DNA of 64,000 nucleotides from Micromussa lordhowensis (lineage: Eukaryota; Cnidaria; Anthozoa; Scleractinia; Lobophylliidae). The position numbers were made by a program, and so were the translations under genes. The DNA is taken from the NCBI GenBank assembly GCA_964020085.1, contig OZ026603.1, forward strand, positions 9,862,426 through 9,926,425. Reading direction: 5' to 3'. The notes below the pieces were generated by a model that searched no databases, was not told the DNA's origin, and saw nothing but the letters and a program-made list of their open reading frames with translations. Positions 1,600 to 25,886 of this stretch are shown piece by piece. Positions within the stretch are counted from its first letter, which is position 1, and each line of letters opens with the position of its first letter.

Positions 1600-3408
1600 A
1601 AGCCAAACAGAGGGGGAGGATAATGGATCTGAGTTCTATGAAAAAATCATTTCTGAATTCCCTGCAAGTGTCATAGTAGAGCCTACAGAAATGTTGCGAT
1701 ACTTGCAGAGGAAGATAGTGAGAGGTCGACCATTGGACATGACAGATGATGCAGCAATACTCATGGGAGACACTAATTTCATTGCTGTTGACCGTGACAA
1801 CATCTTGGACACAACATTTGAAGAGCTAAAAACAGTACAGGATCCAAGAGTAACCTTTCAAGTTGATTTTTATGGTGAAATGGCTCAGGACAGTGGAGGT
1901 CCTAGGAAGGAGTGGATCAGACTTTGTAACCAAAACATCAAGACAAAATACTTTGATCATGGACTTAAGAACACTTAGCAGAGGAGTACTTTTTCGTGGG
2001 ACAGATGGCTGCTATTGCACTTCTGCAGAATGGTCAAGCACCAAAGTATTTTTCTGAGGATCTCTTGAATGATATTTTTGTCAGTGAAGAGAGAGAATTG
2101 TCACCATGTGTCTTGAAACTTCGTCAAGGGCTAGACAGTCTGGGGATTCACATGTTTGGCAGGAAGTTCCCATTGCTCCTTTACTTGCTGAGGCCATCAC
2201 AGAATAATGCCAAACTAACAGTTCCAATTCTGATTCATCTTCTGAAACCCAAGTTTTCAGAGCAGGGGTGTAACAGTCTAGTTCATGAGAAAGCTGTTTA
2301 TGGGAAGTTTGTTAAGTACATGAGAGAAGTAGCAAGTGGGCGTCGGGTTGTCAGTTTAGAAAACATCTTGGAATTTGTGAGTGGAGCAAGCGAGGAACCA
2401 ACCCTGGGTTTTGAAATACAGCCTTGCATTGAATTCGTGGTAGCAGTTGTGTCTGAGGCAGGAGCAAACTATTGTCACACTGAACATAACTGCACTGGAG
2501 AAGAGGTGGATATGAAGATGTTGAATTATATGAGAGTTTTTATGGTGGTTAGAACTATAGGTATTTTGAAGTGATCAAAAGTTCAACTACCCATAGATGA
2601 AAGAATGGCATTTAAACTCATACAGGAAAAGATAAACCCACTAGTTGCTGCCTGAGGTTGTGTAATTTTACACCTAAAAAGGACCTCTGAGGCCCCCTTA
2701 TTTGGACACGTATGTACCACTGACTAGCCAAAATCATTTTTCTCTTCATGTGGGACATGCTCAGCTCTCGGCCTGTAAGTCATTGAAATGGGCAAATGCC
2801 ACTAGTAGGGGATGGGGGAACTCCTATATATATTTAGGATAGGAGTGCTTGACTGTCATAAATTTTGTTAGGAACCCCTACAAGGTAGCAAGATCCTTTT
2901 ATGTGGGTGTGAATTGAAATTTATTCACCCTTGGAGGTACAAATGTTGAATAGACATTCTTTAACTGATGAGTTGTGAATTTCCTATGTAAATATGACAA
3001 AATCAAAAATTTTGTTGATTTTCAAATATCTGACTGACCCAAAGAGGTACCAAAACTGCTTTTTTAACCTTTAATAGGTAGGTGGAACATCCCTCTCCTT
3101 TTGATATGGAACTCCTCCCCCCCCCCCCCCCAAATTGGGCAAATGGCATCATGTTTTTCACTTGGCATGTTAATGTAACTTAAAGGTGAAATGTGTCAAT
3201 AAAATTAAAGTATAACCTTTTTCTTTTTCAATTACTGAAGGTACCAAAGAAGAAGAGGAAAATTGCCGACTTCATTCCGAAGTCCCACACTTGCTCTAAT
3301 ATGCTACAACTTCCATATGGTTCTGCAACCATACCTCTGCCATCTGATGAGGAATTGTTCGAAATCTATGATTTAGCCTTCAAAAACTCTTATTTCGGCA
3401 TTGTGTAA
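1600..3408 (+). pseudogene. HECT E3 ubiquitin ligase pseudogene of element A
   Basis: Codes for the C-terminal HECT ligase domain of a transposon-linked family often annotated G2/M phase-specific E3 ligase-like. The frame runs from about 1600 through NFIAVDRDNILDTTFEEL and SGGPRKE to a stop at 1976-1978. It resumes one frame over (AEEYFFVGQMAAIALLQNG), so a single-base deletion near 1968 broke it. A second exon (3241-3408) follows an intron at about 2441-3240 and contains the catalytic cysteine in SHTCSNMLQLP, then an acidic/aromatic tail ending at TAA. No SAM or zinc-finger part is seen upstream, so the 5' end is missing. It faces the integrase pseudogene at 3877-5380, as in element B. Intron positions differ entirely from the homologue in B. 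Confidence 0.85.
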
Positions 3409-3876
3409 AATGCCATTAGGGCTCATTTTGTGTTGAACTTTTGAAGAAAGGGTAAGATTCCAGAAAGCTTTGTATTATACTGGTGACTGCAATTTACAAA
3501 GCAGAGGAACTATTGCAGATTAGTAACAGAAACTACTTTTTTGTTTACAGAAACAGTCAGTGCTTGTTGAAATTTGAAAAGGTTGCGTTTTTGTAAGGGT
3601 TGCTTCATGAATTAGCACTTGTTGGTGAGGATATTATTTTGTGAGTGGAAAATGTTCCTGTTGTAAACTCCTAAGTTTGAGTATGAACGTCTAGAAAGAA
3701 ATTGTAGATTGTACACAAGTGTCAAATGAAACCATATCTGAATCTCCCTTCCAGGGTTTTGGCTCACTAACCAGGACATAATGGGGCATAGTTCAAAAAG
3801 AAAATATGAGAACCCCCTGGTAAACCACTGATATTTTACAATGTTAAGCAAATTTGCTACAGATTTACCAATATTG
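3409..3876. other. Spacer between the convergent genes of element A
   Basis: Non-coding 3'-to-3' spacer between the HECT and integrase pseudogenes. No gene or repeat was recognised. Confidence 0.5.
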
Positions 3877-5380
3877 TTACAAGTTATATTGCTCTAATTT
3901 TTGCACTACAACTTCAAGAGACTGAGTATAAATGTCTATACCAAAACTAGATGACTCTTGCAAAGGATCAATAGAGTTTGATAAATGGGTTGTGAGTTCA
4001 TCATTATTGATGTTTGATAGCTGAGCAGGAAACACCTCAACATTGTTGTCAGATTCTTCAGGTGTCTGTCCTTCAGGATCTTCACCATAAAATGTCAAGT
4101 CTTCAGGGTCATCATCAAGGTTGCCAATTGCAAGTGGATTGCATGGATTCATCATTCCATTCCACCACATCTGATTTGGGGACCAGTCGTGCTCAGTTTG
4201 AACAGGATGGTCATTGAAAGTGACCATCCATTCAGATAAAGCACAGTTTATTCTTCTTAAATAGACATACTGCAACATGAACATGTGGATGGGATTTTCT
4301 ACATCCAAAAGCCCAGATTGTTCCAATGCGTAAAATGTGTAGTAAAATACATGGCAAATACATCTGAAAACATCCCTCCAGAGCCTTTCAATTCTCTGGT
4401 TTCTGGTCGATGACCCAGCAATAAAACTACCCCGACCCTCCCCACGCACTGCAACCATAGCATCACATACTGCAGTGTTCTCCACACCATAGTCTACTCT
4501 AATGCGGGATGGCCACAGTCCACCATCTCGTACTATAGCGTTTTCAAAGAGACCGAGAACTGTCGAGGAAAGATTATTTGTGCTGCAATGAATGAATTAA
4601 TGAGTGATGTCCATCTAGGTGCCACAACGAATTTGGCCAAGGGACAAAGTACATTCTTCGTGATACTAAAGCACCCCACCTCAAAGCTCTGTTCCTCGGA
4701 TCTACCCTGTTCAGGCTCTCTCTGATGCGCCTTCTTTGCACAGTGTACCCCATTGCTCTAAAGTGTCCTCGTAGATAAGTTTCACCCGTGGTTGACCCAT
4801 GTCGTGCAATGAAGTCCAGAATAATACTGTCTATTTCTTCATCGTTCATGGTGCTGAAAAGGGACAAATGTTCTAGGTCAAATAAACGAACTCGGCGCAT
4901 GATTGTCCAACGAGATACCCTGAAAATCCTAGCAATCTTTTCCCACGTGAAGCCTAGCCCTCGTAAATCCTCTAGTACCTCGGGCGGAATATCTACCGAT
5001 GGTCTACCTGGGCGTCCATTCTTTACTGTTTCACAAGGGACAGTTGTAACTCGCGATGGCCTTGATATACTGTTTCCAAAGTGTTGGCGGAACTTCTCCA
5101 ATAATTCAGAAAACACAACTCTTAGATCGTTTAACTGTTTTACATCAGTTTCGTCGGTAACTATGTTCGCCAACTGACTTGGTAATCTTACCGTTCTCTC
5201 TAAGAGATCTATATGAGTTAAAACCTCAGATATGTGGCGTTCACTCCAAGCAAATGAATTTTGACTTAGAATTTCCTCGGTCCTGCTTATAACATGCTCA
5301 AAGAAGCTCTTCACCTCAGAATCTTCACTCTCCTGCATTTCATCCGCCATCTTTGCCATAAGTCCCAGCTCCCCACTCAA
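3877..5380 (-). pseudogene. Integrase-type DDE transposase pseudogene of element A
   Basis: The N-terminal part (5380 down to about 4574) has a helical region, then a helix-turn-helix (GRPSVDIPPEVLEDLRGLGF, WEKIARIFRVSRWTIMRRVR) and the start of an rve-type integrase core (NSLWHLDGHH, first Asp). The frame then ends, and the core resumes in another frame near 4560 with NNLSSTVLGLFENAIVRDGG, WPSRIRVDYGVEN (second Asp) and [12 protein letters not shown] (Glu). About 25 residues between the first Asp and this point are missing, so a small internal deletion disabled the gene. This subfamily of integrase-like transposases is common in fish and corals and resembles IS3EU/Ginger-type enzymes; the superfamily name is tentative. 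Unlike the copy in B, no SAM domain is seen at the N-terminus. Confidence 0.85.
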
Positions 5381-5401
5381 ATTTTCCCCCTAGACCCAGA
5401 C

Positions 5402-5487
5402 CCCCAAATTGAATGAATGAGTGCGAAGATTGAATGAATAAAGACGGATTGAATTGAATGAATATGAAAATTGGATCGAATGAATTG
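5402..5487. repeat. Terminal tandem repeats of element A, left remnant
   Basis: Degenerate repeats of the words attgaatgaat and gaattgaatgaat begin just after the 5' end of the integrase pseudogene. This is where B's own minisatellite TIR lies relative to its integrase. The array resumes at 17591 beyond element B, so B inserted into it. Confidence 0.75.
5482..5487. repeat. Left target-site duplication of element B (gaattg)
   Basis: The hexamer gaattg directly precedes the TIR and recurs directly after the right TIR at 17585-17590. The surrounding DNA is rich in gaattg, so a chance match cannot be excluded. Confidence 0.6.
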
Positions 5488-6096
5488 TATGGAAAGCCAT
5501 TACTGCCTTATGTTATCACTAATCATAACGCTTTGAAGTTTTGTCATTATTTAATGTAGTTTTGTAATGATGTGGTTTCGATACATCGTTATGTGGTGCG
5601 GTTTCGGAATTATGCTTTGTGGTTTTGTCATCACATGATGATGTTTGGTGATTATGTTATGTGATTCCTTCTTTATGTTATGTGGTTTTATCATTATGTG
5701 GTATGGTTTTATCATTTTGTGTTGAAGTGACTTCATTATGTGCTGTGGTCTTGTCATTATGTGTTGAGGTTTTCTCATTATGTGTTGCGGTTCCTTCTTT
5801 ATGTGGTTTTTTCATTATGTGCTGAGTTTTTATCATTATGTGTTGAGGTTTTGCCATTATGTGTTGCGGTTCTTTTGTTATGTAGTTTCGCAATCATGTG
5901 CTGAGTTTTCACCATTATGTGTTGAGGTTTTATCATTATGTGTTACGGTTCCTTCGTTATGTGGTTTCGCCATTATGTGTTGAGGTTTCACCATCATGTG
6001 ATGCGGTTCTATTTTTGGCAATTCGAGTCTACTTCCGGTGTCAACCATTATTACCCAGGACCCTCTCATCTTTAAAAACCCGTTTAACCAGTTTTT
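5488..6096. repeat. Left terminal inverted repeat of element B (minisatellite TIR)
   Basis: 609 bp matching the reverse complement of 16976-17584. Most of it is a degenerate ~21-bp tandem repeat; read on the minus strand the unit is like cacataatggcaaaacctca. The last ~100 bp before the HECT gene are unique. The long open frames within it (QHIM and THNDKT motifs) are repeat artefacts. Confidence 0.92.
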
Positions 6097-6168
6097 CTGT
6101 CCAAGTACGGTTAGACACTTCGTGTAGCATACTTGACCTACATTTCACCCTTCCGCGCGAAAACAATC

Positions 6169-9100
6169 ATGGAAGGCATCTTGAAAGAGGTCGGCTTGGA
6201 TTCTTTGATTCCACAATTTTCAGCTGAAAGAATTGAGCCTGCAAATGTGGCAGCATTGACGGATGAAGAGCTTTCCCGTTTAGGCGTGAGAACCATTGGG
6301 GATCGCCTTCGTCTCCGTGATCTTTGTACCGCCTCTGAAAAAGAACGTACTCGTGAGTCAGTGGCATCGAATGTTCTCCAGGAACGCATGGCTCTGTTTA
6401 ATGGCCGTAATAGTAGAAGGGCTGATCGCAAAAGAAAGGCAGTCGCGAAAAGGAGTTGGACAGTTAGTTTCGTTTGCGTTGCTGATCGCTACCAAAGCAA
6501 AATTCCCACGTCTACTGAGAAACAAGTTCTTTTCCAGGCAGGCCTCGGTATTAAAAAAATCAAGCTCGACTTAGAAGACGACGAACACGGCGTCTTGGAA
6601 AAGATAACTTGTGGAGACAAAGGTGATGATGGTGGAATTAAAGGTTTTCCTCAGTTGAAGGAGTGCGGAGGGTTCGAGATCATGTATTGCATTTCTGGAT
6701 GCAAGGAACTGAAGCCATTAAATTGCTGCTGGAGTGCCAAAGAACTAAAATCGAATGTTGGTGCACAGGCAAAACTGTACCTACGGCCAATTCAGAAAAA
6801 TCTTTCCACAGTTAGTTTAGTGCCACAAAACATGTCGAAAGTGAAGGAAAGGTGTAACATCTGTCATAAAGAAGTGCTTATGAAGGACCTTCGAGCCCAT
6901 GTTTTCATGTGCAAATCAAAAGAAGGTCTTCTTAGCTCAGATTCTGATGAAGAGGGCTTGAGAGACCCTGCCTTCTCATTATGGAGGTTGCCAGGAAGTA
7001 CCACTTTAAGGCAACAAGGGCAATGCCAGAGTCCAAATAATGCTGGAAGCTCTTCATTGTTTGGGGACCCAACTGTATCTGCTGCAGTGGTTAACCTTGT
7101 TGATGATTCAAGTAACGCAGCCTTTCGTCCAGGAGAGGTGCCAGAAAGTACCACATCAGAGCAACAGAGCCAACCCCAGAATCCAAGTGATTCTGGAAGA
7201 TCTTCAGTGTTGGGTGACCTTACAGTGCCTGCTGCAGTGGTTAACCTAGATAATGGTAATGACAACCAGCTGGATGAAGTTAACACTGCAGCATTATCTG
7301 TTGATGATATTGTGGGCAAGGTAGTGGCCTATTGTCTGGCAAATAACATTCACAATCCAGTTGAAATTCTAAGGTGCCTTCAGAAAGAACTAGTAATTGG
7401 TCAGGCTCTTGAAGTTACAGATATCACACAATGCAAGAGTGGTCCGACAAATTTCATCTTACTCAACAGAGACAGTATACTTGATACAGCATTTGATGAG
7501 TTAAAATCTTATAATGACTATCGCTTAACTCTGGAAGTCCAGTTTTATGATGAGGTAAGTGCTATTTTTATTCAGGAAACATAGTGCTATGTTGTAAAAG
7601 CATTCTTGCTAATCGTAATATGCAAATACAACTGTAATCTAATAATGTTTAAGAACAACACAGTTACTTAAAAACTTATTGAAGCAGTTGCGGAATTTAT
7701 GAATTTACAATATTGTCCAGACAAGCTACATATAGGACTAGGCAAAACGTTTCAGGGCATCAGCAGGGCATCATCACATGACTTATGTCCTGAACATGAT
7801 GATCTTTTTTGCACTGAAATGTTGGTTTGCAACTTCAATTAGAAGAATAGTATGCAGTAAAAGGGCACGATGAAGTAAGCAAGATTGATAATTTTAAATT
7901 AGGCTCCTCGATATTATCATTTCAGATATTCTGTTTATTATTGAGTTGAATCTATACCTACCTACCTACCTACCTACCTACCTACCTACACTGTAATGCT
8001 TTAAAATATCATAACACTTTTTTAAACACCTTAAAATACCATAATTTTAGTGCAAAATAGTTTATTTGATCATCTTTAAATGCAAAGCCTCCCCCCCAAA
8101 TAGCTATAAACTAAGTGTTAAATGTTTGCTCGTGAAGCACTTCATTTTTATTTGTAATTTATTTATCGTAGTTAGCAGCAGATTATGGTGGGCCACGAAA
8201 AGAATTTTTCAGACTTGTTCTCACTGAAATTAAAAGGAAATACTTCGACCAAGGAATCCGTGAGCATCTTTCTGAAGATTACTATATGGTGGGACTTATC
8301 ATGGGTAAGGCACCTTGTCTCCACCACTCAATCTAAAAACACAAAAAAAACTGTTCATTATGTTTTATTACCCTGCTAAATTCAAGCAATGTTTGGTGTT
8401 TCTTTTCTTTTGCAAAAGTGGGAAGAAGGTATAAAAATGATTTAATTTCTCTTGTCTGGCATCATAGATTTGTGTCCTATCTCATACTGAAAGAAAAAAA
8501 CATTTCCAGAATTTTGTTTTGAAATGTGACTAAAAATGCCCTTTCGATAACTTTTAAAAGACATTTGGGTAAAGTATTCTTATCAATTTCAAATTTATGG
8601 TAATTAAATGTGCCACGGTTATCAATGAGTAGCCTCATAGTATGGAAAGGGAAGACTATAAAAAAGAAGATACTCATTCCTATTCACTTGCTAGAAACCT
8701 GAAAGGAAGGTTTTTGGAGATCCTACCTTTCCAACCCATTCGAGCTTGGTTTGATATTTAATAAACCAAGTCTATCAGGACTTCGTTGTGGGTTAGTTCA
8801 AGGCTAGAGCTGTTCTGCATGTCTCATTAATAATGAAATGCAAACATCACACTTTGTCCAAGGGGCCTTTTTTGATTGTGCACTATTTTTTCAAGAAAAT
8901 GTGTGGCTGAGCATTTTGATATGTATATCTTTTCTTGAAATATTATCCTGATTTAGGACTGAGTGTGGTTCAAAATGGCAAAATTCCCAAATTTCTGAAT
9001 CAAGAGATGCTGGAGGGGATTTTCCAGAAACCTGAAGCAACTTTGTCTCCTTCTCTCTTCAACCTGCGAAAGGGTCTTCAAAAGACTGGCATTTACCAGG

Positions 9101-10254
9101 TGAGGAAAGTGTCTCCCTTAAGATCCTTCCTTGTATGTCTTGTATTTCAATTTAGGCTTGGTTCAATTTTTAGTTTCCATTGTTTTCATGGTAATGTACA
9201 ATAATGAGTATAAAAGACAGGAAAATAAAATTCGAGCTAAGGATGCAATTGAACCACAGCATGTACATATACATGTATATGGGTATATAGGTATAACCAC
9301 AACATACATATATATGGGTATATGGGTATATATTGATGCATAAAATTTGGTCATCAACAGGTAGTCTAATGGAAACTTAGGAATGAAATGTACTTATAAT
9401 ATTGTACACACACCACTTATCGTCCACATCTTTAACTTCAGATTTGTGAAGCAATGCCAGAATTTCTGTACCTGTTTAGGCAAGAAGAATGTGTACTGAG
9501 TGTGAAAATGCTCACAACCTTGCTGAAGCCCAGCTTTAGTGAATCTGGTTCTAACAAACGGCGTTTCGAGAATGAGGTGTATGCTTCATTTACCAAGTAC
9601 TTAAGAGAAGTAGCTAGTAAGTGAATTAACTGATGCATCTCAAGGCTAGACTTGAAGCCTAGTTTGCATGAAATCTGAAAACAGTCAGGTCATGGTATAT
9701 ATTTACTAAGAGCCCCTCAGAATTGATAGGTCCAGATTTTGTGCAGATTAGGCTTTGAGTCATGGCTTAATTGAATAAATTAAGATGCCTAAGAAACATA
9801 ATTTCATTTTTATTTGTTTAAATCATGTGAGTGTAAAAATGAACTTTGTGTTAGATTATGAGAACTTAGCAAAACCTTGGTGTACAACTCATACATATAG
9901 CTTAAAATGCTTATTTAGCACTAGGGAACAGTATTTATGGTAATAAACTTGGTTGTAAATGTATCTGTGTCCTATTCAATCCTAAAAAAAATAGGTGGCA
10001 GAAGAGGTGGTCTAAACCTAGGCCATGTATTACAGTTTGTGACAGGAGCTGATGAAGAACCAGCTTTGGGATTTGAACTCCATCCATCAATGGTCTTCAC
10101 TGAAGTAAAAAATTCCTTCATCCCAACAGCACATGCATGTAGTAATGTAATGTATTTGCCACATGGAACCCCAAATGTACCTCTTGTAGAAACCGAGTCC
10201 CTGTTTCAGCTGTATGACTATGCATTTAACAATACACATTTTGGTAAAATGTAA
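6169..10254 (+). CDS. SAM - UBZ4-like zinc finger - HECT E3 ubiquitin ligase
   Basis: Five exons, 6169-7554, 8172-8304, 8957-9099, 9442-9616 and 9995-10254, with GT-AG introns and matching phases; predicted 698 residues. An in-frame upstream ATG at 6133 exists, but 6169 starts directly on the SAM domain. Residues 1-60 form a SAM domain (VGLDSLIPQF, DEELSRLGVRTIGDR). Near residue 229 is a C-x2-C-x11-H-x3-C finger (CNICHKEV...HVFMC), the spacing of the Rad18 UBZ4 ubiquitin-binding finger. From about residue 440 to the end is a compact HECT domain (NRDSILDTAFDEL, YGGPRKEFF) with the thioester cysteine in AHACSNVMYLP. It probably ubiquitinates a substrate using an E2; the substrate is unknown. 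It is the partner gene of the transposase in B. The reading frame is intact. Confidence 0.88.
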
Positions 10255-10523
10255 GTTATTTGCAGTGGTTTGGTCTACTTGTAAGAGATCCTTACACATG
10301 TAACAGCCTATTGGGGGGGGGGGGGGGGGGAACCCTGTTCACAACCAACCTACTATGGCAGGCATACAAGATATTCCTTTAAAAATTAGACTTGTTTTGG
10401 AGTAACTGTATTTCTCTTTGTCGTAGTAATAATAATACTAGGCAGTTACATGTGGCCAAAAACAAGCAAAGCCTAATCTCATTTGTCGATGAACTGTTTC
10501 TGTGGAAAAAATAATGATATTAA

Positions 10524-10525
10524 AT
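10524..10525. repeat. AT target-site duplication of the ISL2EU element, left copy
   Basis: AT lies immediately before the left TIR and again after the right TIR at 14951-14952. A 2-bp AT duplication is characteristic of the ISL2EU superfamily. Confidence 0.8.
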
Positions 10526-10579
10526 AGCACATTTGCATGATGACGTCATGCGCGCACTGCATTCTGGTAGTTGTAGTCA
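10526..10579. repeat. Left TIR of the ISL2EU element
   Basis: 54 bp pairing with 14897-14950. It includes the palindrome gatgacgtcatg, which holds a CRE-like tgacgtca at about position 17 and may serve as a transposase-binding or promoter site. Confidence 0.92.
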
Positions 10580-10597
10580 AACTCCCGGGAAGTTCGA

Positions 10598-12916
10598 ATG
10601 ATGGCGGCAAACGAAGTGTGCGAAGCGGATGTCAATAATTCGAACAACAAGCGTTTTCGAACAATCTTAACAGAGGACGATGTTCCTGGGGCATCTTTAA
10701 AGGGAAGGAAAGCTGAACAGTTAAAAAACGATGAGTTGAAGCGTTGGTTGAAATGTAGAGGGGCGAGTGTATCTGGAACTCGTATGCAACTACTTCAAAG
10801 GTAAACTTCAAAAGTGTGCAGTGCTTTTCCATTCCTGCTTCTCCGTCATTGAATTTTCTAATCATATTTTATTTCTAGGGTTAAAGATTATATTTCTAGC
10901 GGACTACATAACAAGGTAATTGATCCTGATGGGGGAATTCACTCCAATAAAAAGCAATTCGAGAATAATGGCAATGATGGTGTTAACAAAGCAGTTGAGT
11001 GGCCCAAGGAAGGCTGGACCTTAAGCCTAGACAACGCTCCGGAGTTTCAACATTGTTTTATCTTTTCTTACCTCTCTGGAGGGAGAAACAGCGAAGAAAA
11101 AAGACGAGGGGCGTTTAAAAGTAAACGAGAGGGATACGCTTTGTTTAAGGCTTCCCATGTCGTCGATGTTAAATTTAATAGCTCACATGACGATTTCTGT
11201 TTTTTTGAAGCAAGGGTTAAGGCTTCTATGACCAGGAATAAGGTATATAGAACAAAAGTTCGACAGAATAAGACGGGCGAAGTGATGTCAGCTCAATGCA
11301 CCTGTAAAGCTGGTGCTAACGGATATTGTAAACATGTTGGAACATTATTATATACCATACTTGACTTCTCTGAAAGTGACCTCAAGCAAATTCCTACAAA
11401 TACTTCCTGCACAGAGAAGCCTCAGCAATGGCATAAACCCACCCAACGAACTTCCAACGTTCCGATTCTTTTCAAGGATATACTGATGATCAAGCATGAT
11501 TATGATGCAGACAAACGACAGAAGACTGATAAAAGAATTCAAAGAAAAACTGATAAAGAAGCATATTCATCGTGTCCATCCTTTGCTCAACGTGTTACAA
11601 AGGAGCAGGTAATGGACCTGTGTAAAGAATTAAAAAAAGTTGCCAAAGGAATCAAATGCAGTGATTATCAATTTGTTAGAAGGCAATGATTGCGAACCTG
11701 TAACTGTGAAAAAGGTAGAAGATAACTTTGCCAAACATGCTGTCCATGCTGATCATGACTATGTTCCTGGAAAACGTAAGAGAGATGCAACTCAGACGGA
11801 AACAGAAGCTTCCGTGAATTAAATCACCTGTTCATGAAAGATTCAATTCACTGTTCTGAGGGAAATGGGTGTGAGCCACTAGATATAAACTTTTCATCTC
11901 ACTTAGTCATTTCCCATTCTGTAATAATTTCCAACTTACCTGAACCAGCTATGGAAACGTGCATGGCTGTACAAACTGGCATTGCTATGATTAATGAAGA
12001 AAACTTGGAGGTTGCTAGTGTTCAAAGTAATGATGACTTTACAATACCCAATCCCTCACAGAGTTACCCCGATGACTTGGATTTAACTGAGGAAAACTTT
12101 ACAATGGTCTGTAAAGAGTGCATGAAATCCATCAAAATAAACGAAGATGGTATCAGCACTGTTGAGGAGAAAACAAGGGGGCAATCTAGCAACTCAGAGT
12201 GGTTCAAATACAGAAATGGGAGACTGACTGCATCAAAATTTGGTGAAATCAGTAATAGAAGAGTAACTACACCACCTGATAGGCTTGTAAGGGATCTGTT
12301 TCAGTACAAAGTTAGGCCAAGTGTACCATATCAGTGTAAAGTTGGGTTGGAAATGGAACCAGTCATTATAAGTAAGTATATTGAATATCAAAACATCAAT
12401 GGCCATGGTGGTATCACTGTGAAAGAGAAAGGCCTTGTTATTGATAAGGAAAATCCTGTTCTGGCCGCAAGTGTTGATGGTGAAGTAACTGATCCAACAA
12501 ATAAATATCATCCAGTGGGAAATATTGAAGCAAAATACAAGTTATTCCCATCAAAGTTAAAGGAACAGGTGGATGAAAGAGTTCCATTATTAAAAACTCT
12601 TGCACAGCACACCAGGAATTTCTGCTTGGAGATTACAGACTCGAAACTCAAACTAAAAAAAAAACATTCATACTATATACAAGTTCAGGGGGGTATGGCA
12701 ATAACTAGGCAGTCCTGGTGTGATTTTGTGGTGTATACTACTTTCATGAACCATGAGGACATACACATTGAGAGAATTTACTTTGACCCAACATTCTGGG
12801 AAGGACTCAAGAAGAAGCTTCTTGACTTTTATCTCTATGCCATGGTTCCTGAACTACTTACTGGCCGGGTGAAGAGAGGAATCCCTATGTACCCAAAGAT
12901 CTTTTCCTATAAATGA
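10598..12916 (+). CDS. SAP - SWIM zinc finger - YqaJ exonuclease protein of the ISL2EU element
   Basis: Exon 1 starts at ATG 10598 (a second ATG follows at once) and encodes a SAP DNA-binding motif (LKNDELKRWLKCRGASVSG) up to a donor near 10801. The intron ends at ttatttctag near 10879. The next exon carries a SWIM zinc finger, CTCKAGANGYCKHV, near 11300. The 3' part (about 11834-12916) is a lambda-exonuclease-like YqaJ domain: EWFKYRNGRLTASKFG, GLEMEP, AASVDGEV, NIEAKYK and YYIQVQGGM supply the expected Glu, Asp, Glu-x-Lys and Gln. Between about 11640 and 11834 the frame changes twice with stops, so there is either an unresolved intron (a good donor, caggtaatg, lies near 11607) or frameshifts. 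It probably trims DNA during transposition; that role is inferred. Confidence 0.82.
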
Positions 12917-13497
12917 CTGAATTTTTTGGAAAAGAAATTGTGTCTACAAGATATAGAGTTACACTAGTATGAGTACAGTTAATTCAGTGCCAACAGATAT
13001 ACATATAACCACTGAACCGTTGTTTGGTTGAGTTCATGATATTCATATATTAAGCCTGTTGTATTTAAGCATTTCCACAGAAAATTGATTTTCATGATTT
13101 CTGTCAAAGTCCCCTCTACTACCAATAATAACAAATCAAAGTAGCTTGTTATAATAAAAATCAAGTGTATATAAGGGTTTCCAACATAAAAAAAATGAGA
13201 AGGGGTTGGACGCAAAAGAAAATTATGTAGTTAGTATTTAGAGAGGGAGTCATATCAGCTTTAAGTTAACTGGTTTTCATGTAGGTCTCTATCCAGGTAG
13301 AACATTGCAATTTGAAGTGTTAGTTTTTGAGGAGGGAAGAAAACTAGAGAACCCTGCGAAAACCCATGGAGCAAGTAAGAGAGTGCAAACTTGACCCACA
13401 TATGGCAGAGGGCTGTAAATCAAGCCACATCACATTGCTAGAAATAGAGCACTCTCATCACTGCATCATCCCTACTACCCAAAATTACAAATAATTG
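12917..13497. other. Spacer between the convergent ISL2EU genes
   Basis: AT-rich 3'-to-3' spacer inside the ISL2EU element. No gene was recognised. Confidence 0.5.
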
Positions 13498-14885
13498 CTA
13501 TACAACTAGTGGTGGCCCCTTAAAATTGGCCAGTGAACAGCAGACTTTCCAGATTTTGCCAATATCTTCAGACATAGAATTTGGTAATATCTGTTTGAGA
13601 ATGTTACAGTTTTTAACTCTTTCAATAGCCCTTTCAACATTTATGCGTACAGATGCAATCTCTCTTGTTTCATCCTCTTCGTCAGGATTTAGCTGGTCCT
13701 TACTTCTCATAAATGGTGCGATATTAAGGTAAGCTTTCCTTGGGGCTAATAGGTCTTGGATTTCAAAACCACGATCTGCCATTACTGAATCCCCCTCTTC
13801 AAGAAGCTGTAGAATACCACAATCTTCAACAATAATTTTGTCACTGCAATGGCCTCCATACAGATCAGAAATAAAAGTTAAGGCACCAATAGGTGCTATT
13901 GCAACAAGGCCCTTGGCTGTATTGTGGGATTTATATGTAGAGTAAGTAGCAGATTGTGCACGGAAACATGAGGGCTTTTCAATAAATAATTCATTGCAGT
14001 CCAGGATAACTCTTGTGAGTGGGTATTTTTGCTGAAAGACTTCAGGCATTGTTTCTTCAATGGTCTTTTTGGTAGCCCAGACAGGAAGTTGAATTAACCT
14101 TGAATAAAGTAAATCAAGCCAGGTAGCAAAAATCCTTGAAACCTCCGAGACACTCATATTATAGTTATCAGCCAATACTTTCTCCGGGATATTAACCCTC
14201 AATCGACACAATGTTAGAAAAAGCTCATCTTCGGGTTCTAAGGAGCGCTTTTGTCCCCTCTTTTCACTTTCAGGTAATTGTATCTTAGCATAATCAGAGC
14301 CCCAATAATTCAGTCGATGGCAAATATCATAGGCATTTAGGAATTTGAATAACGCCACAAACTGACCATAGGTCAAGCCAGTGTAATAAGACATATCTTT
14401 GTCTGAATCTTTAAACCGCCTCAAACCAAATTTGAAGATGGCCAGATCATGTTCCAATGATTCTTTTAAGTGCAGGACGTTTTGCAGTTCATCTCTCAGT
14501 CGTTCAATCTGTTGTTGTGTACCATCACGCTCCGACTCGTCATTTTCTGTTGTGCTTGAAGCTGCTGAACTGAATGTAGCCGGTGTCTCTTGACTAGATG
14601 TTGAAGGCCCGTGTAAAATGACCTTTCTCCTTGGTTTGGGTGACGGTCTTGGATGGGACTTTGCCAAAGGAAAAATAACAGGAACATTGTTCATGTAGTT
14701 TTTTTGGCCTCCTTCGAAATGCAAGCTACATACCCGGTGTCCAGTGCCGGGGAAAAATTCTTCCTCGATATTTTGTGCAACCAGCGTTTCCGCAAATTCT
14801 TTTCTTTTGGGAAACCATAGAACGAGAGATTCACGCCTCTTTTACTGTTGCTAAAACACCCTGGAACACAGCAAGGAGACTCCAT
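13498..14885 (-). pseudogene. THAP - DDE transposase of the ISL2EU element, one frameshift
   Basis: Starts at ATG 14885 with a THAP zinc finger (CCVPGC, FYGFPKEKNLRKRWL). The second metal pair, CSLHF, lies in another frame just downstream: one C appears lost in the run near 14735, which would otherwise join the frames. Beyond it the frame stays open to 13498: a Pro/Ser-rich linker, a coiled coil, a helix-turn-helix (NYNMSVSEVSRIFATWLDLL) and a DDE_Tnp_4 core. Its acidic triad is in VILDCNELF, VMADRGF and NVERAIERVK. PIF/Harbinger-related ISL2EU enzymes have this order. All catalytic residues remain, so the copy was inactivated recently. Confidence 0.87.
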
Positions 14886-14896
14886 TTTGTTTTTGC

Positions 14897-14950
14897 TGAC
14901 TACAACTACCAGAATGCAGTGCGCGCATGACGTCATCGTGCAAATGCGCT
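14897..14950. repeat. Right TIR of the ISL2EU element
   Basis: Reverse complement of 10526-10579 with two mismatches, followed by the AT duplication at 14951-14952. Confidence 0.92.
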
Positions 14951-14952
14951 AT

Positions 14953-15546
14953 TAGCCCACTGACAGGACTATGTCTAATCAAATTATGGATGTGGTTGCC
15001 AATGAAATGTTTCTGTTACTGAATGATAGTTGTTGTAATAATGTAAGGGCAGTTAGGAGATAAGGGGGATTCATAAGAGCTACCGATTTCACATCCATTA
15101 CTTGGAATCTTTAGGTGTCTGTTAAGTAATCCTTATGTACTTTCCTCAATTCGTATAGGCCGTCTTGTCTTTTTTCCTGTCTAGTTTTCAACAAAACCTT
15201 TCACTTAAACTCTTTGCCTATTAAACTTTCAAAACAGACAGACGTTATAACCCTATCACACTGACTGCCCCCATTTATGGTCAAAAGTCTCACAGTGGCA
15301 CATTGTTTTAGATTGCATAAGTCTTGTTGATATTATTCTCTACCACGGATTCTTGTTTGGAGTAGGTGTTAATATTTGTATGTCAATGCAGAATGATTTA
15401 AGGCCCTGTAAATTGCAGGTTGTTTAATCATAACCGAAAAGAGCTACTGGTACCTATAAATGTTATCACTGTGTTTTAAAATGTATTAATTACCCTACAT
15501 GAACTGATATTAAAATAAAGTTCCGTTCTTGTTCTGGTCTCAGATC
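14953..15546. other. Element B spacer, right of the ISL2EU insertion
   Basis: About 590 bp of non-coding DNA between the ISL2EU right end and the stop of the B transposase. With 10255-10523 it forms the original spacer between B's convergent genes. No further gene was seen. Confidence 0.55.
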
Positions 15547-16932
15547 TCAAATGTTCAGTACATTCTGCATGATTATTTCAACTGCTTTCAGGTAATGTTC
15601 CACTCCATAATTTTCTGACGACCAAGGGGAAGGAACTTGACTAGCCAGTTGTGATTTACATTGATCAGTGAGGAAAATTGAAAGAGACTCTAGAATGGGC
15701 CTGCTGTCATCCTCCCCCTCGCTGCTGTTGTCTATAATTCCTTCTACTCCATAATATTCTGTGGCTGATCCCACTAATTCAATACCTAACGGATTTTGTA
15801 GTTGCCCAGAGACCCACAAACGAATCGGTGAAGATCTTGTTGTGCGCATCCTGTGGCGTGACCAAGCACTGCTCCAGACTTTCAACTTCTCATTTATTAC
15901 TGGTAAATAAACAAAATGAAGAGCGGCAAGATGAATCTCATTCAAAGGATCAAGAAATCCTTCATCTTCCATGAAGTAAAACAGTCTATAATATAATCCT
16001 AAAACACCCTCAAAAACGTCTCGCCACAATCGTTCGATTCTTTGATTGTGTGTACTTTTTCCAACTATGGCACTTCCTCGATCTACCCCTCTTTTGAAAA
16101 TCATGTAGTCTGCAATATCGACGTTTTCCATGCCCTTGTCAGTTCTGATTCTGCTGGGTAACCCAAATTCATCTACAGCAGACAAAAAACATTTTAAAAT
16201 TGTATCAGCCTTGTTGTTGTCTGTGCATGATAGCATGACGGGCAGGCGGCTAAAGCCATCAATGCCCCCTATAACTACTAGATGCCAACGCACAAGTTTA
16301 TGGTTAGTGTCAATATGCCATAGGTGATTGGGACCTTGAACATTATAAGTCCGGCGGCGGAGACGACCTCTTCTTCTATTTTTAACACCTTCATGATCAA
16401 CTCTATGAATGCTGTCGCGGAGTCTCATCCTTTGCATCTTTATTCCCCGATCTTCAAGTATTTGCTTCAGCATTCCCTCTCCACAAGAGGGAAATTCCCT
16501 GGTAATTTTCTTCACGACATTATCTAGATCTCCGTCTGATATTTCTGTGAACTGTAACTGACTGAGGCCGTAACGACCCATCCGGCGGTAAACTGTACGT
16601 TCAGAAACAGAGAGTAATGTTGCAATGTCCTTAATTTTGAAGCCATCCTCCAGATAACCCTCTAAAACTGACTTTGAGATAATATACTCAGGTGCACCGC
16701 AACCTTGCGTTCCAAGATTCTTTAGCGGTGGATTGTTTCCAAACGTTAGAGACTCTAACCTTAAATTCATCATTGAGCTTCGATCATTTATGCCTAAGCA
16801 TTCCAGTTCTTTAATAGACAACTTACATATTTGATCCACCGTTACTTTTTCCCGTTGAAAGTTTTCAAGAAGATGTCCAAGATGCAGCTTTTCAAGCACT
16901 CTTGACAAATAAGCGTTCGATTCTCCCGCCAT
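15547..16932 (-). CDS. SAM-domain integrase-type DDE transposase of element B
   Basis: One uninterrupted frame of 461 residues from ATG 16932 ([11 protein letters not shown]). An upstream in-frame start at 17034 would lie inside the TIR and is less likely. Residues ~8-62 form a SAM domain ([26 protein letters not shown]). Next come an HTH ([20 protein letters not shown]) and an rve-type integrase core: [12 protein letters not shown] (Asp), [23 protein letters not shown] (Asp) and [13 protein letters not shown] (Glu). The triad is complete. It lies 44 bp inside the right TIR, the usual place for the transposase of such elements. The SAM domain matches the domain type at the start of the partner HECT protein. 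Confidence 0.9.
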
Positions 16933-16975
16933 CTTGTTACTTTGGAAGCGCAGGCACTGGGTCCGCACGGAAAAA

Positions 16976-17584
16976 AAAAACTGGTTAAACGGGTTTTTAA
17001 AGATGAGAGGGTCCTGGGTAATAATGGTTGACACCGGAAGTAGACTCGAATTGCCAAAAATAGAACCGCATCACATGATGGTGAAACCTCAACACATAAT
17101 GGCGAAACCACATAACGAAGGAACCGTAACACATAATGATAAAACCTCAACACATAATGGTGAAAACTCAGCACATGATTGCGAAACTACATAACAAAAG
17201 AACCGCAACACATAGTGGCAAAACCTCAACACATAATGATAAAAACTCAGCACATAATGAAAAAACCACATAAAGAAGGAACCGCAACACATAATGGCAA
17301 AACCTCAACACATAATGACAAGACCACAGCACATAATGAAGTCACTTCAACACAAAATGATAAAACCATACCACATAATGATAAAACCACATAACATAAA
17401 GAAGGAATCACATAACATAATCACCAAACATCATCATGTGATGACAAAACCACAAAGCATAATTCCGAAACCGCACCACATAACGATGTATCGAAACCAC
17501 ATCATTACAAAACTACATTAAATAATGACAAAACTTCAAAGCGTTATGATTAGTGATCACATAAGGCAGTAATGGCTTTCCATA
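16976..17584. repeat. Right terminal inverted repeat of element B
   Basis: Reverse complement of 5488-6096 with equal length. Here the plus strand reads as cacataatg-type ~21-bp repeats. Differences noticed from the left copy are a few single-base changes. Confidence 0.92.
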
Positions 17585-17590
17585 GAATTG

Positions 17591-20943: not shown

Positions 20944-21590
20944 TATGGCGTTATATCCCCGCCAAAAATCGACTTTTGTTTTTGACCTTTAAGTTTCCAT
21001 TTCAATATTTAAGTTTACAATTTAGATTACAACTTTTAAGGAAAACATTCTTCCTCTAAATGCAACCTTATACGTTTGTAATCATTTGAAGTGTTAAGAT
21101 ATGCGTCATATCCCCGCCAAAAATCAAGTTGTGCTCTCAACATTCAAGTTTTAGCTTTAACAATTATGTTTACTATTTCGAAATCAACATTCGAATACAA
21201 AACCGTTTCTTTGCGTTTGACATCATATCTTTCCTTGATCACTCCCATATTCCAATAAAAAAACACGAACCAACATTCAAGTTTTCCATTCAACAATCGA
21301 CTTTTCGCTTCAGCAATAAAGTTCTTGCCTCAACATTCATCCTTTATGGTTTAACAAACAAGATTGTCCGATGAAGAACAATACCACTTTGAAACTGAGG
21401 TCTTCGCTTTTATGAAATACCGAAGAAGACTCGAAGATACGCAAAGCACAACTTTTGTATTCAACATTGAAGTTTTGATTTGAACTTCACGCTTCACTGG
21501 ACACACCCAAGGTCAGGCAATGAGGCATGCGCACTGTGAGCCTAACCACAATGCCCTAACGGAGGATTTACCAAAGCACATGGCTTAGCG
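20944..21590. repeat. Left TIR of element C
   Basis: Inverted copy of 26821-27477. The right copy has an extra ~10 bp (tataccgacg) near its inner end. The 81-residue frames in both TIRs are mirror copies and unlikely to be genes. Confidence 0.9.
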
Positions 21591-22036
21591 CCAGGCGGTG
21601 TGCGTCACGAAATTCGACCAATCAGAATGCGGTATTTTTCAGTAGTTTTTGTGCGCGAGAACATCAATTTTGTGAGGTCAGGCTGTCTAATATTTCGTCT
21701 TTCTCCAAGTCCGTGTTCTATTTTATGCGGTTCAAATTCTTTTTAAAGTAAGAGGAATAATTTGGCTTAGTACTGGTTACGTTATTTTTCAAGTTGAAGA
21801 GTTTGTTCGCATTTGTAGCCGTTTCAAAAGTTACGACCTCGTGGCTGCCGCCATGTTGTTTTGATCGTAGACTTTACTACTTTTCTTGAGGTTATAGCTA
21901 CTTACTGTTGCCAGTATTTTCCATTTTTTTTGCTCGCTAAGTTAGCTTATCCTTTCAACTTTAAAATTTTCGGGGTCTACCCGGGTCTACCCCTTATGGT
22001 TTTCCCGTTGCAAGCCGTTGAAGTAAGAGAGATTCT

Positions 22037-22171
22037 ATGAAGAGATCGAGTAAACCAAGTGGCTCAACTCCCGGGAAACCGGCTGGAAAAGCCAATCGAA
22101 GGGAAGCTGGAGGTCAGTCAAATATAAACCTCTCATACAGGAGGAGTCTTTTCAACTTCAAACCAGACAAG
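22037..22171 (+). CDS. Possible first coding exon in element C (basic, Ser/Pro-rich)
   Basis: ATG at 22037 opens a 45-codon frame (MKRSSKPSGSTPGKPAGKAN) that ends exactly at a good donor, aag|gtaaag. No downstream exon was identified on the plus strand, where the opposite-strand HIRAN gene lies. It could be the 5' exon of a lost or very divergent transposase, or chance. Confidence 0.3.
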
Positions 22172-22219
22172 GTAAAGAACTGTAATTTGTAATTATTTTG
22201 TGCCTCAATTAAAGCGTTT

Positions 22220-23111
22220 TCATATTGTATTTTTCTTGGCATGGCACAAAATACACAGCATAATTTGCCGGAATGAATTCTTATTGTTAGCATTTTCGAA
22301 CAGATGTTGTAAAGTTAAGTAATAACCAACTTGTAAATAGTTTACTCTAAAGCGAATGCGTGCAACTGTTATTTTCAGATTGTTTCTCTGTAATAAAGGG
22401 TGGAGATCACTTGTCAGTTCTGTTGCAATATAACCAACTTTTTCCCAGCCTCTGTGGTAGCTAATATAAACAGCTATTACTTGCTGGTCATACTCATTAT
22501 CGGGCTCTGGCTGAAGCTTTGCTTGTACTGGTTTATCCTCCTCCAAACTTTCATAAGCCTTTTTCAGGGAAATTTGCCTGCCTTTATAGGCCACTCCAAG
22601 CACTTTAAATGGAACAGTATGTTCAGTATCTGAACAATGACTGTCCTCCTCAATTGGGTAATCCGTGTCTGTTTCAGACAGTCTGAATTCCCATAGGACT
22701 AAATACATACTGTTTTCTATTTCGATATAACATGATTTTGAACAGAGTATTTCATCTCCAGGTTTTACACGCCCACTGTCTTCTGTCCTAATCAGCACGG
22801 GTAATGTTGTCCTTCTGTTTTTAGCAGTTCCCTTCCTAAATTCTATTGTCAGGACAGGAAAGGATGGAATGATCCACTCAGTGTTTTCTTGCTCTAGGCT
22901 TTCAAACTTTAAGGTCAGGTGTCTAGACTGCCACAAACCATCCTAAAGGGAAAGTGGTACAAAATAACATTACGCTCCACACATTTGAATTTGATGTTTA
23001 ATTTTAAGAACTGCTACAGTGTACCTCGGTGTGCAACCACATGATTCAAGATAACCAGTGCCTGTTAAAAGAGAATTCAGACCGACTTACAGTATCAAGA
23101 AACTGTGCCAT
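22220..23111 (-). CDS. HIRAN-domain protein of element C
   Basis: Exon 1 (23111-23091) encodes MAQFLDT and ends at gtaagt. Exon 2 (22942-22220) follows a tttag acceptor in phase 0 (DGLWQSRHLTLKFESLEQEN); predicted 247 residues. The C-terminal half, from about VPFKVLGVAYKG through EPDNEYDQQVIAVYI to KVGYIATELTSDLHPLL, is a HIRAN domain. In HLTF/Rad5-type proteins HIRAN binds 3' ends of single-stranded DNA. The N-terminal half is acidic and unassigned. With the neighbouring flap-nuclease homologue this suggests handling of replication or repair intermediates for the element. Confidence 0.8.
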
Positions 23112-23216
23112 TTTCATGCACTTTTTTTCTCAGAGTAAGATAGACTGTCACACTTTCTCTCGTACAGTTGTACGCGTCTTTGTGTGGCCTCTGCTTCTGT
23201 AGGCAAAGGACAGGAC

Positions 23217-23562
23217 CCCTGGGGGGTACTTAACAAAATTTGATACTGGGAGGCTCCACCCTGAGGTCCAACCACTTACCATTTTATACAGATGTATACC
23301 ATTTTGGCAGGAAAGGTACCCCCTTTATATACCTTTTATTGTAAGGAAGTCCTCTTCTCATTTACATGTAGTGCTTAATAAATAAACTCGTACAGCCATA
23401 ACGCCCTTTTAAATACCTATATGACCGATTTCCCTACCTTTTTATATACCTCAACTTATGAAATCCTTACCCTTTTATATACCTGAAGCCTGAAAAAGGT
23501 ACCCCTTTTGGGCGGAGACTCCCCGTATAGGCCATTATAGGGAGTACACCCCCTCCCCCCTC
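23217..23562. mobile_element. MITE between the HIRAN and nuclease genes
   Basis: The ends ctggggggtact and agtacaccccc are loosely inverted. The interior is rich in taccctttatatacct-like repeats. No duplication was defined. Confidence 0.5.
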
Positions 23563-24185
23563 CACAGGACCATTTTCAATTAACAGAGAAATGGCTTTTG
23601 TAAAAAGTGGAAGTACATTACAGCAAAGAAATTAATTGGCCCAAAAATTAAGGATACATCACTTCATAGTCTCAATTATCTTATTTGTGGAGTGAAGAGG
23701 AAAAGGAATGACGCAAAGAAGCCACATTTTGTTGCAAACAGGGTAACTGTGAAATGACGAAATATGTACATTGTATGATGAATTGTGAACTGTAGTACAG
23801 GAAAAATGTTGATCTATCTATTTCTTTGGTGGGAAGTGGAAAAGTATCCTGTATGGTAGTCCTGTCCTTGGGATCAACATTACCAACTGCTAGGTTTACT
23901 GCATATTCTTTTGAAAGAGTGCTATTGTAATGTTAAGGAATAGCAATATATTTTATTCAACACAAGTTTTCAGTAAGATCTAGCCGGTCATCAGGTTCCC
24001 AAGTTGCTTCATGGGAGAAGACCAAATCAGAGCTTGGTCCAGGAGAACAAAGAGAAATGAAGGGAGGGGGCACGTGGACATCTTTTGATGACGCCTGACA
24101 GCATCAAAGAGTGCCCACAGGCTCCCTCCTTTTCTTTCAGACCCCAGACCATGTAGCTCTTTTAGACATTCATACATGAAGCACG
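23563..24185. other. Element C spacer downstream of the nuclease gene
   Basis: A minus-strand frame at 23980-24192 (LKELHGLGSERKGGSLWALF) has protein-like composition but matches nothing recognised and has no clear splice partner. It could be a 3' exon of the nuclease gene or a fossil. Confidence 0.35.
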
Positions 24186-25764
24186 TCAACAAATATTATT
24201 AGGTGTTGGTATAAGACTGAAATAATTCAATATTATTGGATACGCCCCACATGAGTTCAGGAATGTTTCTGCAGTAGTAGGTTCTGGCCAAGGTGTTAAT
24301 GGTGCAGTTGCCATAAGAGCAGGATTGAGAATCGTCTGATGATGGAATACTGCCTTAGCTCTTTGAAAGCCATCAGTATAGTCTGTGGGAGCATTTTTGT
24401 TTTTCTGTAAGACATCTAAAAAATATTCCTTTGTTACAAGCTTCTGAGCTGTATGAATACCAACACCATGTACATTTTGCTGGAAGTCACACCCTGCAAC
24501 TATGCACATATTGAGGAAATCATCTTGTGTCATTGACAAATGACACAAGACTTTTTCAATTTGAATAACATGGCATGCACCACTGAGTTGTAACTTGAAC
24601 AAAACCTGTAACAAAACAAAGAGAAAATAAGAGGTTCAGAGTGTCTTCTGTGTTAACAGAAGTCATTTATTGGAAGTCTACATCGAATTACATGCAATAT
24701 TACTCCCTCTTACAAATCCACAAGATACATTGGGAGAAAATTTTCGAATAAAAATTTCCAGAAGGATTTACAGTTCTGTGTAGGACGATGTCATTGTTTT
24801 GAAGCAATAAACAGGATAACTGTCAGTTACAAATGGCATGATTTAATCATTTTTACCGCTTGACATCCATAAGCAAGAAGGTCTGAATCCTCAGAAATGG
24901 CGATGTCAGCATAACAATGTTTAACAAGATAGGCTATTTGTGCAGCGGCCTCGTAGGGAGCTACCACATAATCAATAGCCTTTTGAAGTACAAGAAAAGT
25001 ATTTTACTTGGAATGAAGTTTTATATTCCAAAAGCTTAAAGCTAATCTAAACAATTGAATATTAATGCAATAATGTGGGGTTTGAAGTCGTGTTGAGCCA
25101 TCCATGTACTAACAAGAACTCTACTCTGGGGAAGCACCTCATGAAAAATTAAGGACTCACTTGGATAAAATCGCACACCAGGTCGTGGCTGATTTCAGTG
25201 GCTGCAGCTACAGCTTTCTTTGCCTCCGTTTCGTTTCCACTTCGCCGGAGTTGCTCGGCTTTTTCCTTCTGTTGCTCTCTTTGTCTACAAGAATGTTCAT
25301 CCATTTAAATATTTGCGACCACAATATATTGAAAACGAACATTTGGCTTGGAAATTTGGGGTTAAGATTAAGATTAAGATCACATGCAATATTTTTGCTC
25401 ACCTTGCTCGTTTTACGCGCACTCCTTCCTTGGCCGGTAGAGGTAAGCCATCAAACACAACCAACGGGCGAATGTTGTTTTTCTCCAGCAAATCCAGGAA
25501 GGAAATGTAGATCTCTTTAACCCTAAGATGAAAAAGTAAACTACAAATAGGCGAAAACAATAAAAGAGCTCTAATAAGCGGAATATAAGCTTAAAACATA
25601 AAAAATTATCACCTTCGATTGTCGCCGAACTGGGAATAACTCAAAGCAATGGCCTTATGTATCCAGCAGGAAGCGTCTATGGCAGCTACTTGACCGTAAA
25701 AATTTGTTAAATTGCTCTCCTCAGTGACAGCTTTGAGAAAAGGAAGCAAAGTTTGGATGCCCAT
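24186..25764 (-). CDS. EXO1/FEN1-family flap nuclease of element C
   Basis: Five exons (25764-25613, 25522-25403, 25284-25161, 24979-24857, 24605-24186) with GT-AG introns and compatible phases; predicted 312 residues. It starts [13 protein letters not shown] like EXO1. XPG-N contains [11 protein letters not shown] (Asp30) and [16 protein letters not shown] contains [13 protein letters not shown] and [12 protein letters not shown] helix-hairpin-helix follows [16 protein letters not shown]. In PYEADAQ of EXO1 the Asp is a metal ligand; here it is Ala, so activity may be reduced. The other acidic ligands are present. It lies within a TIR element next to a HIRAN gene and is likely cargo or an accessory for transposition. 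The long C-terminal tail of host EXO1 is absent. Confidence 0.85.
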
Positions 25765-25886
25765 TTCAACTTCACTGTAAGTTCGCGAGATGTTCACTCG
25801 GTCGCGACCAGAGGCAAATGAGCGATTTCCACACTTTTACCCAGCACCCTTTGTGGGTCGTGACGCACACCGCCTGGCTTAGCGCC

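Follow-up and report, generated by a model that had tools for sequence, protein, structure and literature searches.

Elements of the IS3EU superfamily, the closest described relatives of the transposon analysed here, are characterized by TA..TA ends, 6-base-pair (bp) target-site duplications and the absence of an HHCC motif (PMC10045372, in the sections consulted). A fungal set of these elements has the ends TAYGG..CCRTA, and in its TET+ members an alpha-kinase gene is oriented opposite to the transposase gene, with TET/JBP between the two (PMC12730594, likewise in part). HECT is mentioned in the main text of neither paper. We analysed a 64,000-nucleotide stretch of the genome of Micromussa lordhowensis (Scleractinia; assembly GCA_964020085.1, contig OZ026603.1, positions 9,862,426 to 9,926,425), hereafter "the window", in which a transposon termed element B (5488-17584) carries, within one pair of terminal inverted repeats (TIRs), an integrase/transposase gene and a gene for a putative HECT E3 ubiquitin ligase. 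Elements of the IS3EU type are known; the HECT ligase as a second gene appears to be new. Within the literature searched (titles and starts of abstracts among the matches listed, and part of PMC9926710) we found no HECT-carrying DNA transposon; Repbase was outside the scope of this search and might already record a HECT gene.

An IS3EU-type transposon with two convergent genes

Element B is a TIR-bounded DNA transposon that has been mobile recently. Its arms are identical at 605 of 609 positions, its termini are TATGG..CCATA, i.e. TA..TA, and the direct repeat GAATTG abuts it at either end. The first-pass annotation had proposed here a transposon with integrase and HECT ligase genes, both open and convergent within near-identical 609-bp TIRs, and this description is confirmed. 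Without a 4.4-kilobase (kb) transposon nested in it, the element measures about 7.7 kb, the size of its copy on C6 (L009).

The diagnostic features of IS3EU recur beyond the window. Termini TATGG..CCATA, which fit both TA..TA and TAYGG..CCRTA, are found in the window, L009, L010, L011, L013 and L049, and 6-bp duplications in four of five both-ended copies (GAATTG, GAAGTG, AAAACG, TTAATA) and in L049 (gagcaa). The integrase is encoded by an uninterrupted open reading frame (ORF) and has an rve-type DDE core (Pfam rva_4 "Integrase core domain", 5.7e-76; rve, 1.8e-7); none of its 19 Pfam rows is an HHCC zinc finger preceding the catalytic core, and HTH and SAM matches stand there instead. Because the ends, the duplication and the type of transposase match the superfamily, element B is very probably a cut-and-paste transposon of the IS3EU type, as assigned by features and not by tree. 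A retrovirus-like integrase was considered and rejected, given the TIRs, the lack of an HHCC finger and the absence of any recognised reverse-transcriptase ORF between the TIRs.

The ligase gene is predicted, from sequence and not from RNA, to comprise five exons with GT..AG introns and to encode a stop-free protein of 698 amino acids. Its HECT domain lies above the curated Pfam cut-off (1.2e-8; 35.4 bits versus 23.9), the best phmmer match to HECT structures of the AREL1/UBE3A type has an E-value of 1e-7, and the motif PTAHACSN, which contains Cys661, aligns with PTAHTCFN of AREL1, in agreement with the HECT domain and catalytic cysteine recognised earlier. Upstream of this domain the ligase has a C2HC finger, CNIC-x11-H-x3-C. 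The rule for UBZ4 fingers is C-x2-C-x11-H-x3-C, and the exact Rad18-like spacing claimed at first indeed holds for the window and for the copy L009, the only two of ten sources scanned to show it (several of the ten lack the finger region); it is not conserved in relatives, as L021 has H-x4-C. The Pfam finger matches are below cut-off, and since the L021 finger is one residue longer, ubiquitin binding by this finger is uncertain.

A SAM domain had been placed at the start of both proteins. In the ligase the SAM_1 match is below the 23-bit Pfam cut-off (3.3e-4, 21.4 bits), and a single-sequence AlphaFold model of residues 1-77 has a predicted local distance difference test (pLDDT) score of 74.8. 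In a PDB search with this model (187 matches, E up to 10) all 50 rows listed are SAM-containing entries, led by tankyrase, BICC1 and ANKS6, the best with E 0.016 and probability 1.00 and none at 0.001 or better. The integrase has a weak SAM_1 match (0.004, under cut-off) and matches to tankyrase chains at about 0.008, and its single-sequence structure model (pLDDT 37) is unusable. Model and PDB matches thus bear out the five-helix SAM fold for the ligase; for the integrase the domain is suggested by sequence comparison only.

Recurrence and conservation of the integrase-HECT pair

We searched 581 Mb (megabases) of the genome for both genes. The integrase search gave 88 rows (85 of 870 candidates scored), merged into 83 places, and the Pfam HECT search gave 131 matches (129 of 234 candidates scored), merged into 91 loci; the latter omits the HECT exons of the window itself and therefore misses members. 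Ten rows join an integrase place and a HECT locus no more than 10 kb apart. In five of them the genes converge across 0.9 to 2.1 kb; in the remaining five they stand in tandem or diverge and are 4.8 to 7.2 kb apart. The five convergent pairs, which are not fully independent (copies of the L049 family, on C4 and C5, account for two, and contig C2 holds the other three), compare with 0.08 pairs expected by chance within 3 kb. For most of the 83 integrase places no HECT partner was demonstrated.

Ten relatives were read farther downstream, with the partly masked L052 left out; L046, L048, L049, L054, L058 and L059 were picked because HECT was already indicated, and L047, L050, L051 and L053 by their integrase. 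A convergent HECT gene faces integrases with identities to that of element B of about 80% (L048, genes broken), 61% (L046) and about 39% (L049 and L054), and the two genes are convergent in all pairs seen. This recurrence in divergent relatives led us to reject a single-copy accident. The clearest independent case, L049, spans 6,404 bp; its 382-bp TIRs are 96% alike, its ends are TATGG..CCATA, the duplication gagcaa flanks it and both genes lie inside it. Its ligase frame is open for 748 codons (660 amino acids from the likely start Met), and the N-terminal part of its integrase may come from a separate exon. The family has a second copy, L054, in which both frames are open over the region read and no TIR pair was found. 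Among the relatives picked by integrase, L047 has a weak C-lobe piece (E 3.9e-7) and L050 a C-lobe (Pfam 1e-5), the latter with another inserted element in between.

That insertion, L050:3897-7359, is flanked by inverted repeats (arms about 97 bp, 73% alike) and separates the integrase from the HECT gene. In L059 a HECT gene (4850-5815) faces the integrase; the N-terminus of this ligase appeared UBA/CUE-like by eye, which Pfam did not confirm, giving one sub-threshold match (GIP1_N). In both L058 and L059 the N-terminal ORF of the ligase has no Pfam HECT match, and the evidence for HECT consists of C-lobe matches. Six pattern matches were obtained in viral contigs, none encoding a relative.

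We also examined 25 integrase loci outside the B family (L021-L045) with 1.5-kb flanks, the shortness of which makes all counts lower bounds. Ligase sequence other than the SAM of the integrase itself is present in at least 7 of the 25 (L021, L023, L026, L027, L028, L029, L034); in L026, L028 and L029 it is the ligase-type SAM region alone, on the strand opposite to the integrase.

The pair also bears marks of selection. Between the window and L048, a broken copy, the ratio of nonsynonymous to synonymous substitution rates (dN/dS) comes to 0.14 over 445 codons of the integrase and 0.11 over 216 codons of HECT, with dS of 1.0 and 1.8 and thus partly saturated; this codon comparison shows purifying selection on both genes between the two families. 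Two residues of catalytic significance, the HECT Cys and a Phe at the fourth position from the C-terminus, are kept in six of six lineages in which the C-terminus was read (window B, element A, L046, L048, L049, L050). Because the pair recurs and has evolved under purifying selection, we regard the ligase as a long-maintained partner of the integrase, and it is in all likelihood a selected one rather than stray cargo.

Copies of element B and evidence against an obligate partnership

Strong matches to the TIRs of element B occur at six places in the genome, which account for 11 of 20 rows; the remaining nine rows are 68-71% alike. Both genes are open in the window copy. In the C6 copy (L009) the ligase is open, with 11 amino-acid differences, the integrase is frameshifted and the duplication is GAAGTG. 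In the C4 (L010) and C10 (L011) copies the integrase is open and the ligase has been lost to one common 1.8-kb deletion. The C12 copy (L012) retains an open integrase and, of the ligase, exon 5 only; it has one end, with no left TIR within 9.1 kb. The C9:31.75M copy (L013) is 2.3 kb long and has both ends, neither gene and no clear duplication. Repeats similar to the TIRs of element B (about 70% identity) also occur in several arrays in L014 (C14:14823000-14827000), where neither gene was matched; this is possibly an old non-autonomous relative of the element.

Besides the breakage of L048 and the partial saturation of its dS, several observations weigh against a strict and general partnership. 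L010 and L011 transposed after the loss of the ligase, because the deletion breakpoints are identical and the insertion sites and duplications differ (AAAACG versus TTAATA). Since these HECT-deleted copies have moved, an element does not require a ligase gene of its own in cis: either the protein acts in trans or transposition can proceed without it. Among copies about 99% identical, dN/dS ranges from 0.6 to 1.8 for HECT in three comparisons, which show no constraint, and from 0.19 to 0.71 for the integrase in four, all on few changes. In the 25 loci outside the B family the HECT C-lobe is present in at least two (L023, L027), and a C-lobe profile scan of the same loci with their flanks revealed no others; a rescan of five of them with added queries gave a weak remnant in L030. 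L021 and L034 keep the part of the ligase from SAM to finger, with HECT absent from the flanks. Farther downstream, L053 has no ligase or HECT match over 5.9 kb, and L051 none by tblastn, one ORF there resembling the N-terminus of the L049 ligase by eye. Finally, likeness between SAM domains does not prove contact, all of them being homologous.

The first-pass annotation had taken two arrangements as telling against a joint system. HECT genes outside the TIRs were not seen, as in both-ended copies HECT, where present, is inside them. The second, integrases without HECT in most relatives, is closer to what we found: a complete HECT accompanies one of four open integrases among the copies (that of the window), in addition to the scarcity of C-lobes in distant loci. 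The claim that the two genes move together is correct in so far as a single pair of TIRs encloses both and the same pairing is met again in divergent relatives, and must be relaxed for the C4 and C10 copies.

Possible pairing of SAM domains

The SAM region of the ligase scores 55 against that of its own integrase and 77-95 against those of three related integrases, and the maxima obtained with shuffled sequences (33-40; 500 shuffles each) are below all four scores. SAM is present in the integrases of the B clade and in those of its ligases whose N-terminus was covered. It was detected in neither protein of L049, the only family outside B to be read completely, where Pfam found no SAM in three ORFs scanned. 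Because of this distribution the suggestion that SAM-SAM contact recruits the ligase would apply, as far as seen, to one clade at most, HECT appearing as the more general partner. Within the B clade, a SAM tether of the ligase to the transposase complex is plausible, if tentative.

Possible roles of the ligase

Overall, we lean towards the reading that element B is an IS3EU-type element with a long-maintained HECT partner that acts in trans and ubiquitinates the transposase complex or host proteins. By analogy with the family, the integrase would bind the repeat-rich TIRs and insert the element with a 6-bp duplication. The product of the convergent gene would work in trans, modifying the transposase complex or host proteins at the element; in the B clade it may be brought to the complex by SAM-SAM contact, on the simplest reading, and, once tethered, might perhaps lead to extraction of a stable post-integration complex or limit the level of the transposase. 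Action on or at the transposase complex is the option we favour and could well be correct; action on host factors is a real, somewhat lesser possibility, with host-directed anti-silencing nearly as likely. A much more specific scheme, in which the SAM-tethered ligase and the extraction machinery of the host disassemble the stable integration complex as a eukaryotic, element-encoded counterpart of the ClpX step in phage Mu, with HECT as the usual second subunit in IS3EU elements of animals and SAM as a later upgrade in one clade, is improbable as a whole.

In the strongest rival the ligase is an anti-silencing factor with a role like that of TET/JBP: by attaching ubiquitin to repressors or chromatin proteins of the host it would allow the element to be expressed, and the integrase SAM would serve for oligomerisation of the transposase only. 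TET/JBP genes of fungal DNA transposons, including IS3EU, have been proposed to provide escape from methylation (PMC12730594, in part). The spread of HECT-deleted copies agrees with a host-directed factor, since such a factor acts in trans, and the presence of HECT in L049 without a Pfam SAM implies that the usefulness of the ligase is not due to SAM. This explanation does not account for the presence of SAM in both proteins of the B clade or for the likeness of the two domains; it is possible, yet we hold it to be rather doubtful. An unlikely variant is self-restraint, in which the ligase marks excess transposase for degradation and thereby spares the host, its loss being tolerated or raising the mobility of deleted copies. 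Copies with an open integrase and a deleted HECT have indeed moved, but two insertions are too few to indicate increased mobility, and the window copy with its intact ligase also looks recent from its TIRs. That the HECT gene is functionless passenger cargo, host E3 fragments captured and carried repeatedly, would agree with its loss from copies, the lack of constraint in recent ones and the many distant integrase loci without HECT in the sequence read, but is very improbable in view of the convergent placement beyond chance, the low dN/dS across families, the conserved catalytic residues and the long open ligase frames in both L049-family copies.

Under the preferred reading of a maintained partner acting in trans, the same gene pair in several related elements suggests that protein tagging is part of their life. 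Ubiquitin ligases are usually viewed as host tools against mobile elements. A ligase that is encoded within a DDE transposon and retained across divergent families would allow a direct test of whether ubiquitination forms an integral part of transposition (turnover of the complex) or serves to counter silencing. Such a ligase would also matter for the sorting of E3-like genes, as some HECT genes in such genomes may belong to transposons and not to the host.

Other elements in the window

The earlier account of the window was right about the two-gene element B and overlooked two further elements (Table 1). The first is the nested ISL2EU-type transposon, in which the SWIM and YqaJ ORFs are split by stops and the DDE_Tnp_4 transposase ORF is open. 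The copies L009-L012 lack it and are contiguous across the insertion point, L009 representing the empty site; it is an unrelated passenger, seen in the window copy alone. ISL2EU elements carry YqaJ, and the nested element shares with them the DDE_Tnp_4 transposase, the YqaJ gene and the 2-bp duplication. The second, element A, is a divergent, broken integrase-HECT pair, convergent like that of B. A search of 14.4 kb for TIRs bounding it yielded four short inverted repeats (20-61 bp), none flanking both genes, and element A was rejected as a TIR-bounded unit.

Table 1. Positions of predicted features in the window
Feature	Position	Strand	Remarks
Left target-site duplication of element B	5482..5487		GAATTG
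Left TIR	5488..6096	+	TATGG end; tandem repeats, mostly degenerate units of ~21 bp
Ligase exon 1	6169-7554	+	SAM (about 6181-6315), conserved middle region, C2HC finger (6853-6912), linker, start of HECT domain
Ligase exon 2	8172-8304	+	HECT N-lobe; GT..AG introns, open frame; AREL1/UBE3A alignment
Ligase exon 3	8957-9099	+	HECT
Ligase exon 4	9442-9616	+	HECT
Ligase exon 5	9995-10254	+	HECT C-lobe; Cys661 at 10138-10140; C-terminus FGKM, Phe at -4; stop TAA
SAM-HTH-DDE integrase/transposase, 461 amino acids	15547..16932	-	Open ORF; D208, D265, E300 (DD34E, assigned by motif)
Right TIR	16976..17584	-	CCATA end; paired with left arm
Right target-site duplication of element B	17585..17590		GAATTG
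Nested ISL2EU-type transposon	10526..14950		TIR AGCRCATTTGC.., 2-bp duplication AT; SWIM and YqaJ ORFs on +, DDE_Tnp_4 gene on -
Element A (limits approximate)	1612..5359		HECT gene on + (pieces about 1622-3408) facing integrase on - (pieces about 5359-3877); frames broken

Three further regions lie outside these elements. At 20944-27477 there is a TIR element with 630-bp arms that are 100% complementary, TATGG..CCATA ends and the short duplication CTTAC; among the features encoded by its ORFs on the minus strand are a HIRAN domain (Pfam 1.2e-9) and a stretch at 24189-24635 that looks flap-nuclease-like by eye. The region 49134-50753 contains a reverse transcriptase (Pfam 4.1e-8) together with a GIY-YIG match slightly under the cut-off, and resembles a Penelope-like element. 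A long array of direct repeats with units of about 2 kb occupies 40478-47616.

Comparison with known systems

With IS3EU/GingerRoot, element B shares the ends, the 6-bp duplication and the rve-type DDE transposase without an HHCC finger, and differs in having a HECT ligase as the second gene and SAM on both proteins. The fungal TET+ IS3EU elements (PMC12730594, as far as consulted) likewise have a second gene for a protein-modifying enzyme placed opposite to the transposase gene, but theirs are a kinase accompanied by a dioxygenase, in fungal hosts, instead of a HECT ligase. The ligase itself has the N-lobe and catalytic C-lobe motifs of AREL1 and UBE3A/E6AP, which are host proteins, whereas that of element B is transposon-encoded and possesses an N-terminal SAM and a C2HC finger. 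In the MuA-ClpX system the Mu transpososome is disassembled in a protein-remodelling step on the transposase-DNA complex; the putative ligase of element B would resemble it by functional analogy only, not by homology, and would take a ubiquitin route to a comparable end.

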